64,000 nt of DNA. Origin: Planctomycetaceae bacterium (GTDB taxonomy: Bacteria > Planctomycetota > Planctomycetia > Pirellulales > PALSA-1355). The stretch is from assembly GCA_003153375.1 (NCBI GenBank), contig PLYM01000219.1, positions 80,871 to 144,870 on the forward strand. Reading direction: 5' to 3'. This document shows, piece by piece, positions 35,296-37,306 of this stretch (position 1 is the stretch's first letter; every line of letters starts with the position of its first letter). Position numbers and translations under genes: made by a program. The notes under the pieces are model-generated. The model saw nothing but the letters and a program-made list of their open reading frames with translations. It ran no database searches and was not told the DNA's origin.

Positions 35296-36981
35296 TTGGT
35301 GCGCGCTGCCGTGGTTCTGACTCTGCTGTTGGCCCTCGCCGCCGATGCACGTGCCGTCACGATCGCTTGGACGCCGGTCGGCAATCCGGGCAATGCCAAC
35401 GATCCAGCAACCGGCAGTCTTTATGGGGGGGTGGGTTACAACTGCAACATCGACAAGTACGACGTCACCAACAACCAATACGTCGCCTTCCTCAATGCCA
35501 AAGACCCAACCGGCGCGGACCCGTTGGGGCTCTATAGCACCGGCCCGGGTAGTGGCATCAATTACAACTCAGGCGCGGCCGTCGGCAGCATGTTTAGCGT
35601 CATTCCGGGCGCCGGCAATTATCCGGTGAATGACGTTTCATGGTACGACGCGATTCGTTTCGCCAATTGGATGAATAACGGACAAGGCAACGGCGATACG
35701 GAGACCGGCTCTTATACGCTGCTTGGCGGCACGCCGACGCCAACGAACGGGAATAGCATTACGAGGAACGCCGGCGCAACGATCTTCCTGCCTAGCGAAA
35801 ACGAGTGGTATAAGGCGGCATACTACAATCCCAAAAGCCAAACGTACTTCAAGTATCCGACAAGCAGTAACACGCCTCCTGTAGCAACCGTTCCTACGGG
35901 GGCCATCAATTCGGCGAACTACAACGGGGCCGTGGACCCGAGCAACGGCGGCAATTTCACGGACGTTGGCGCGTATACGGGGACGACGAGCCCCTACGGC
36001 GCGTTCGACATGGCGGGGAACGTCTTTCAGTGGGACGAAGCTTTGATCGGTTCTAATCGAGGCCTTCGAGGTGGTTCGGCCTTCAGCGCCACCTCCGATG
36101 AAGGCTTGGCCTCCTCGTTCAGGGGCTCATGGGAACCTGCGAACGACACTACCGACCTCCTATTCGGCTTCCGCGTGGTCATGGTTCCCGAGCCCAGCAG
36201 CAGCGCGCTCGCCGCCCTTGGCCTGATCGGCCTTGCTGCCTGGGGCTGGCGACGGAAGCGGTCTCGCCTTGCCGCAATGGCAATCTTAGTCGTGCTGGTC
36301 ACTTTTACCGCCGACGCACGTGCCGTCACGATGGCTTGGTCCCCGGTCGGCAATCCCGGCAATGCGCCGGATACGACTGTCATGACGACCGACGGAACCA
36401 GCGGATATGGCTCCGTGCCTTACGCCTACAACATCGGCACCTACGATGTCACCTACAGCCAATACGTCGCGTTCCTCAACACCAAAGACCCAACCGGAGC
36501 CAACACGCTCGGGCTGTACAACAGCAATATGAGCAACGCCGTCATAGGTGGAATCAACTACAACGCCGGCAACTCCGCCGGCAGCAAATACAGCGTCATA
36601 TCTGGCAACGGAAACCACCCCGTCAACTGCGTCACTTGGTACTCCGCGATTCGCTTCGCTAATTGGCTGAACAATGGCCAGGGCGACTGCGATACGGAGA
36701 CGGGAGCCTACAATCTCTTGGGATTCACTCCCACTCCCAGCAACGGCAACTCCATCACGCGAAACGCGGGGGCAAAGGTGTTCCTTCCCAGCGAAAACGA
36801 ATGGTACAAGGCTGCGTTCTACAACCCTGCCACCAAATCGTATTTTCAGTATCCAACCGCCACCAACAAACCCCCAACACCTAGCGATCCTACCGGGGAC
36901 ATCAATTCGGCAAACTACTCTATCACACACCGTTTGACCGATGTGGGTGCGTACACAGGGCGATTGCGTCATAAGCCGTAA
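35296..36981 (+). CDS. Fused tandem SUMF1 (FGE-like) protein with internal PEP-CTERM, truncated by a MITE
   Basis: 561 codons. Domain 1 (about 20-300) is SUMF1/FGE-like: YDVTNNQYVAFLNAKDPTG, WYDAIRFANWMNNGQGNGDT, LPSENEWYKAAYYN, YGAFDMAGNVFQWDEALIGS, RGLRGGS. It ends with a PEP-CTERM signal (VPEPSSSALAALGLIGLAAW, then RRKR). With no stop it runs on through AMAILVVLVTFTADARA, a second signal peptide, into domain 2, which stops early at GAYTGRLRHKP because of the inserted element. The start is TTG 35296 or GTG 35299, behind GAGG. The copper-binding Cys pair of true FGE is absent, so it probably has another role. Confidence 0.8.
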   Translation: MVRAAVVLTLLLALAADARAVTIAWTPVGNPGNANDPATGSLYGGVGYNCNIDKYDVTNNQYVAFLNAKDPTGADPLGLYSTGPGSGINYNSGAAVGSMFSVIPGAGNYPVNDVSWYDAIRFANWMNNGQGNGDTETGSYTLLGGTPTPTNGNSITRNAGATIFLPSENEWYKAAYYNPKSQTYFKYPTSSNTPPVATVPTGAINSANYNGAVDPSNGGNFTDVGAYTGTTSPYGAFDMAGNVFQWDEALIGSNRGLRGGSAFSATSDEGLASSFRGSWEPANDTTDLLFGFRVVMVPEPSSSALAALGLIGLAAWGWRRKRSRLAAMAILVVLVTFTADARAVTMAWSPVGNPGNAPDTTVMTTDGTSGYGSVPYAYNIGTYDVTYSQYVAFLNTKDPTGANTLGLYNSNMSNAVIGGINYNAGNSAGSKYSVISGNGNHPVNCVTWYSAIRFANWLNNGQGDCDTETGAYNLLGFTPTPSNGNSITRNAGAKVFLPSENEWYKAAFYNPATKSYFQYPTATNKPPTPSDPTGDINSANYSITHRLTDVGAYTGRLRHKP

Positions 36982-37095
36982 GGTGTTGCACCTGAATATT
37001 ATGCGGAAATCACGCTAGCTGCTGGCAAAAAATCGCAACACATTACGGCTTCGTGACTTTGGATTTACACGTGCGATTGCCCTGGGTGCGTACAC
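36945..37095. mobile_element. MITE-like insertion (127 bp) with 12-bp target duplication
   Basis: The element spans 36957-37083, with gggtgcgtacac on both sides (36945-36956, 37084-37095). Its ends are AGGGCGATTGC and, inverted, AGGGCAATCGC (9 of 11). A subterminal inverted repeat of 17 bp, AAGCCGTAAGGTGTTGC at 36973 and its inverse at 37035-37051, differs at one base. There is no coding capacity. Removing it restores the SUMF1 reading frame. Confidence 0.85.
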
Positions 37096-37306
37096 CTCCA
37101 CAAAGAGCCCCTATGGTGCCTTCGACATGGGTGGAAACGTCTTTCAATGGAACGACTCTAGGATGGGCCCTGGCCCGTTGCGAGGTAGGCGGGGCGGTTG
37201 CTTCGGGTCAGGCTTGTTTTTATTGCACGCCGCTTGCCGGGAGTACGACCTTCCAGATACCGCGTTCGCCTATCTCGGCTTCCGCGTGGCAAGTATTGCC
37301 CCTTAG
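37084..37306 (+). pseudogene. 3' remnant of the second SUMF1 domain
   Basis: Beyond the MITE-like insertion the frame continues the domain: GAYTSTKSPYGAFDMGGNVF, QWNDSRMGPGPLRG and, at the end, YLGFRVASIAP. It is cut off from its start by the insertion. The stretch between LRG and AYLGFRV is less conserved and may contain a small frameshift. No PEP-CTERM follows. Confidence 0.8.

Follow-up and report, generated by a model that had tools for sequence, protein, structure and literature searches.

A very probable trans-mobilized ISAs1-type MITE of 129 bp interrupts the second of two tandem SUMF1 domains in a Planctomycetaceae genome

A short insertion that breaks a SUMF1 reading frame in the window (the whole 64,000-nucleotide stretch of contig PLYM01000219.1 that was analyzed) is, with high confidence, a non-autonomous MITE of the ISAs1 family mobilized in trans. 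As mobile DNA the element is of an ordinary kind, a deleted ISAs1 relative that moves only with a borrowed ISAs1 enzyme; that an ISAs1 transposase acted on it in trans, and which copy was its parent, we infer from sequence comparison. The insertion is not a chance feature, as it has copies elsewhere in the genome and folds well below shuffled sequences. For the window, the gene breakage is thereby explained and the responsible mobile family is named.

Element boundaries and genomic copies

The features of the insertion are as follows.

36956..37084, + strand: 129-bp non-autonomous ISAs1-type element (MITE), CAGGGCGATTGC...GCGATTGCCCTG, with ends set by aligning the C276, C28 and C1 copies
36946..36955, no strand: left copy of the 10-bp target duplication, GGTGCGTACA, identical to 37085-37094
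37085..37094, no strand: right copy of the 10-bp target duplication, GGTGCGTACA
36956..36967, + strand: left terminal repeat CAGGGCGATTGC (then GTCATAAG); the remnant left ends on C117 and C267 read CAGGGCGATTGCGCCATG
37073..37084, - strand: right terminal repeat CAGGGCAATCGC (then ACGTGTAAATC, minus strand), resembling the resident right ends CAGGGCGATTGCACGATAAGTC (C158, C235, C284)
36973..36989, + strand: left arm of a 17-bp subterminal inverted repeat, AAGCCGTAAGGTGTTGC, 94% complementary to the right arm and paired in DNA and RNA folds
37035..37051, + strand: right arm of the same repeat, GCAACACATTACGGCTT

A blastn search of the organism's own genome recovered the element in full four times, at 93-100% identity, and a fifth time as a partial end. 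Besides the window copy (on C81), the full copies are C276:35707-35835 (99% identical, at a contig end), C28:21416-21545 (95% identical) and C1:18095-18224 (93% identical, reverse strand), and C259 carries a 25-bp right end of the element at the contig edge. The flanks on C276 and C259 have no 10-bp duplication in common, indicating separate insertions and therefore at least five in the genome. The sequence-only reading had proposed a MITE-like insertion with further copies, which these results support; the absence of such copies had been named as grounds for abandoning the proposal.

The exact repeat noted earlier on both sides of the insert is present, with 13 identical bp (TGGGTGCGTACAC) at 36944-36956 and 37083-37095. 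Its interpretation as a 12-bp target duplication was rejected after alignment of the genome copies. When the window, C28 and C1 copies are aligned with their flanks, the element borders are CAGGGC...GCCCTG, and the C28 and C1 copies are bounded by exact 10-bp duplications of their own (CCGAGCCAGC and CCGCATGCAT, respectively). All three copies with both flanks thus have exact, mutually different 10-bp duplications, so that the duplication measures 10 bp and the element itself 129 bp, rather than the 127 bp initially given for an insertion that is otherwise genuine. The 12-13 bp in the window appear duplicated because the adjacent bases by chance equal the outermost bases of the element.

The terminal inverted repeats (CAGGGCGATTGC / CAGGGCAATCGC) are imperfect, with 10 of 12 positions identical, and the subterminal inverted repeat is nearly perfect, both in agreement with the earlier description. 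Beyond 12 bp the two MITE ends diverge, as the resident ISAs1 ends partly do. The element encodes no ISAs1 transposase ORF and is consequently a MITE and not an autonomous IS: it is short, non-coding and multi-copy, carries terminal repeats and a target duplication, and has its ends in common with an autonomous element. No copy was found in 57 related genomes or in a further 396 genomes of the order, the latter covered by a looser look in which only two candidates per genome were scored.

Interrupted host gene and other insertion sites

The host gene is now divided into two parts.

35296..36981, + strand: interrupted host ORF, comprising a first SUMF1/FGE domain with PEP-CTERM followed by the 5' portion of a second SUMF1 domain
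37095..37306, + strand: detached 3' portion of the second SUMF1 domain, STKSPYGAFDMGG...YLGFRVASIAP, with the stop at 37304-37306 (joined-flank translation)

The ORF presently stops inside the element, at a first in-frame stop at 36979-36981. When the flanks are joined and a single copy of the duplication is kept, the frame is restored (...DVGAYTSTKSPYGAFDMGGNVFQWND...; GDINSANYSITHRLTDVGAYTSTKSPYGAFDMGGNVFQWND...GFRVASIAP and stop), and the joined translation matches Pfam FGE-sulfatase over 9-251 (E 7.5e-23), upholding both the split SUMF1 domain and the restored frame that had been read from the letters. The tandem first SUMF1 domain is uninterrupted at the corresponding place (...DVGAYTGTTSPYGAFDMAGN...); this empty-site comparison uses a tandem paralog with only 68% DNA identity, as no relative with the locus empty came up in the searches of related genomes, which were made with the element. 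The broken SUMF1 gene has presumably lost its function.

The copy on C28 also splits an ORF, which when joined encodes a class I methyltransferase (PF13649, E 2.2e-20), and the copy on C276 falls within or next to an ORF that carries an ATP synthase delta (OSCP) domain (PF00213). Separately, the two SUMF1/FGE domains within 35296-36981 are read in the same frame without an intervening stop. A PEP-CTERM motif closes the first domain and is directly followed by an apparent second signal peptide (RLAAMAILVVLVTFTADARA), which gives the impression of two tandem genes fused through stop loss.

Assignment to the ISAs1 family

ISAs1 elements are described with terminal repeats of 14-22 bp that start with CAGGG and with a 10-bp target duplication (PMC11946415). 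The element begins with CAGGG at both ends (CAGGGCGATTGC / CAGGGCAATCGC), all three doubly flanked copies have the 10-bp duplication, and ISAs1 transposase remnants with matching ends reside in the same genome. In total, three PF13808 matches and several further ISAs1 transposase pieces were detected there. The piece on C117 is the N-terminal half of an ISAs1 transposase (NCBIfam NF033564 transpos_ISAs1, E 2.6e-60; PF13808 above cut-off), with the end CAGGGCGATTGCGCCATG located ~140 bp upstream, and the same arrangement is seen on C267. On C158 an ISAs1 C-terminus is followed by the right end CAGGGCGATTGCACGATAAGTC, and contigs C235 and C284 break off no more than 23 bases from that right end, as is expected of a multi-copy IS in a short-read assembly.

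By sequence, the left MITE end resembles the ISAs1 left end and the right MITE end the ISAs1 right end. The left end of the MITE is CAGGGCGATTGCGTCATA (CAGGGCGATTGCGTCAT vs. CAGGGCGATTGCGCCAT in the remnants), and its right end is CAGGGCAATCGCACGTGTAAATC, beside CAGGGCGATTGCACG in the resident remnants; the same asymmetry, with GCG.CAT on the left and GCACG on the right, marks the element and the resident ISAs1 pieces. Complete elements were found in two genomes of the same order: three loci in G026 (L096, L099, L101) hold ISAs1 copies of 1,261 bp with ends CAGGGCGATTGCGCCACG / CAGGGCGATTGCACGTTA and an exact 10-bp duplication, and one locus in G004 (L062) holds a copy of 1,264 bp with both end kinds and an exact 10-bp duplication. 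The element thus resembles the ISAs1 family (PF13808 plus PF01609; NF033564) in its CAGGG ends with a CAGGGCRATYGC core and in its 10-bp target duplication, but differs in having no transposase gene, in its length (129 bp vs. 1,261-1,264 bp) and in an interior unrelated to the ISAs1 sequences compared.

Within this 291-contig assembly, no intact ISAs1 with matching ends (CAGGGCGATTGCG(T/C)CAT / CAGGGCRATYGCACG) was found, the pieces being cut or at contig edges, and, by blastn, the MITE interior matched nothing in this genome apart from its copies, so that no parent with that interior was found. Two side observations concern these pieces and related loci. On C117 (L039, 860-1922), the cut ISAs1 transposase is followed, as judged by eye, by the C-terminal part of an apparently unrelated transposase, which looks like nested or deleted IS remains. 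At L045 (C1 ~14,143) and L046 (C37 ~26,420), an identical 15-bp flank CGCGGCCGAGCCGGG precedes CAGGGTAATTGCGTGTTATCGCGC, indicating a longer repeated sequence.

The other family that had been put forward, an IS4-like transposase or another long-duplication type, shares one trait with the element: IS4 members also make duplications of ~10 bp, or 8-13 bp depending on the subgroup (PMC2266710). The IS4 subgroup ends in the available text of PMC2266710 are CAT..., -AATR, CT or CW, as opposed to CAGGG here; moreover, ISAs1 elements from the same order have matching ends and a matching 10-bp duplication, and the transposase remnants with matching ends in the same genome are of ISAs1. A MITE of the IS4 family or of another long-duplication family is therefore highly improbable, and the IS4 assignment was rejected on the subgroup ends in that text and on the presence of ISAs1 elements. 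Combined, the ends, the 10-bp duplications, the resident remnants, the same-order elements and the non-matching IS4 ends place the element in ISAs1. A family first considered unidentifiable is thus named, and the search suggested at that time, for a full IS with AGGGC ends, arrives at the same name.

Proposed mobilization and alternative explanations

In the proposed mechanism, a full-length ISAs1 in the same cell would supply its DDE transposase in trans, and the transposase would recognize the CAGGGCRATYGC ends and excise or copy the element. The element would then be joined to a target whose two strands had been cut 10 bp apart, and repair of the gaps would make the 10-bp duplication. Insertion into the second domain of a tandem SUMF1/FGE-type pair truncated the reading frame.

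The hairpin potential of the element is strong enough to consider a REP/BIME-like or structural palindrome that is not mobile and serves an RNA or DNA function (terminator, attenuator or sRNA). The whole-element RNA fold lies well below shuffles (z -4.7 in one run and -5.2 in another), as do the whole-element DNA fold (z -3.6) and the interior alone (z -3.4). Exact target duplications, insertion within coding frames and transposon-type ends all speak against this explanation, and the element has no Rfam match. In the C1 copy, substitutions in both hairpin arms weaken the pairing, the aligned genome copies show no compensatory changes, and the interior hairpin recurs in some but not all of the other confirmed elements. 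Since the pairing is not preserved and the hairpin occurs in some elements only, the hairpin is more likely a by-product of the origin of the element than a selected RNA. An RNA function was rejected for want of an Rfam family and of compensatory changes, and an immobile palindrome is very unlikely. Another explanation, a domesticated switch whose reversible insertion would regulate or phase-vary the SUMF1 gene, would draw on the restoration of the SUMF1 frame by precise removal; however, any clean insertion regains the frame on precise excision, and other copies sit within a methyltransferase ORF and within or next to an ATP-synthase-delta-like ORF, which fits dispersal by parasitic insertion, so that we give such a switch hardly any credence. 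The non-autonomous ISAs1 MITE remains the preferred explanation.

Similar elements in other genomes and in the literature

A pattern scan (CAGGGCRATYGC-N88-116-GCRATYGCCCTG) over 84,980 species genomes identified at least 115 similar elements of 113-140 bp, compared with a rough chance estimate of ~1 match in random sequence of even composition; one further match came from viral contigs and is counted among the testable loci. Among the matches listed, the 10-bp duplication was exact in 36 of the 111 loci with both flanks, with one mismatch in another 13 and two mismatches in 12, and some pattern matches without a duplication resemble ordinary coding sequence. By record title, the loci with exact duplications belong to Desulfobacterota-type deltaproteobacteria, Pseudomonadota, Chloroflexota, Cyanobacteriota, Planctomycetota, Acidobacteriota and a Patescibacteria genome; the same kind of element is present in at least seven bacterial phyla. 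Since matches to the signature come from many phyla and few are expected by chance, the family can be catalogued.

PF13808 transposases were found in 15 of 25 genomes with such elements, often with matching ends; in Crocosphaera watsonii, for example, the IS end CAGGGCAATCGCATTTAATTTTTG and the MITE end are identical for 24 bases. Across nine genomes (few in number, two of them related, and with one IS chosen per genome), positions 13-18 of the MITE ends track those of the resident ISAs1, with a score of 80 vs. a permuted mean of 53.2 and only 3 of 20,000 permutations as high. This agreement within genomes provides indirect support for mobilization in trans.

This MITE family is hardly described in the open literature searched. 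The text consulted in some of the papers that a text search found to name both ISAs1 and MITEs describes no ISAs1-type MITE, and a 2024 MITE review (PMC10969869) does not mention ISAs1. The known bacterial IS-derived MITEs, such as MITEPye1 and Chunjie of Geobacter (PMC10969869), are similar to the element in being short and non-coding, with target duplications and stem-loop potential. MITEPye1 of Paracoccus yeei also has terminal repeats in common with an IS, but of a different family, IS1182 (PMC11578231). The MITEs of Anabaena 90 are called type II, without IS-related ends, in the text available on them.

Among the papers listed in a text search of the literature for the end sequences, only one looked relevant, on P. 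gingivalis (PMC3969353), most others being on Klebsiella pneumoniae by title. At the P. gingivalis capsule locus, a published 77-bp arm oligonucleotide has CAGGGCAATCGCATTTG at its start, and CAAATGCGATTGTCCTG closes the other arm (PMC3969353). The capsule repeat shares with the element an ISAs1-type terminal repeat at the arm end, but has longer arms (77 bp) and is described as a host regulatory region (PMC3969353); a text search of that paper found no transposon terms applied to it, and the repeat had no match in viral contigs. Judged from the oligonucleotides, the capsule repeat would be an ISAs1-type MITE. We lean slightly toward the broader view that ISAs1 has repeatedly given rise to stereotyped MITEs of ~113-140 bp in at least seven phyla and that some published regulatory repeats, including the 77-bp capsule-operon repeat of P. 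gingivalis, are unrecognized ISAs1-type MITEs, suggesting that some studied regulatory palindromes may be mobile-element remnants.

Crocosphaera watsonii WH 8501 holds many near-identical 127-bp elements of this class (L111, L124, L146, L163, L194, L209, L214). Several of these lie in poly-C/poly-G-like targets (TTTGGGGGGG), and a full ISAs1 of this strain has the same end.
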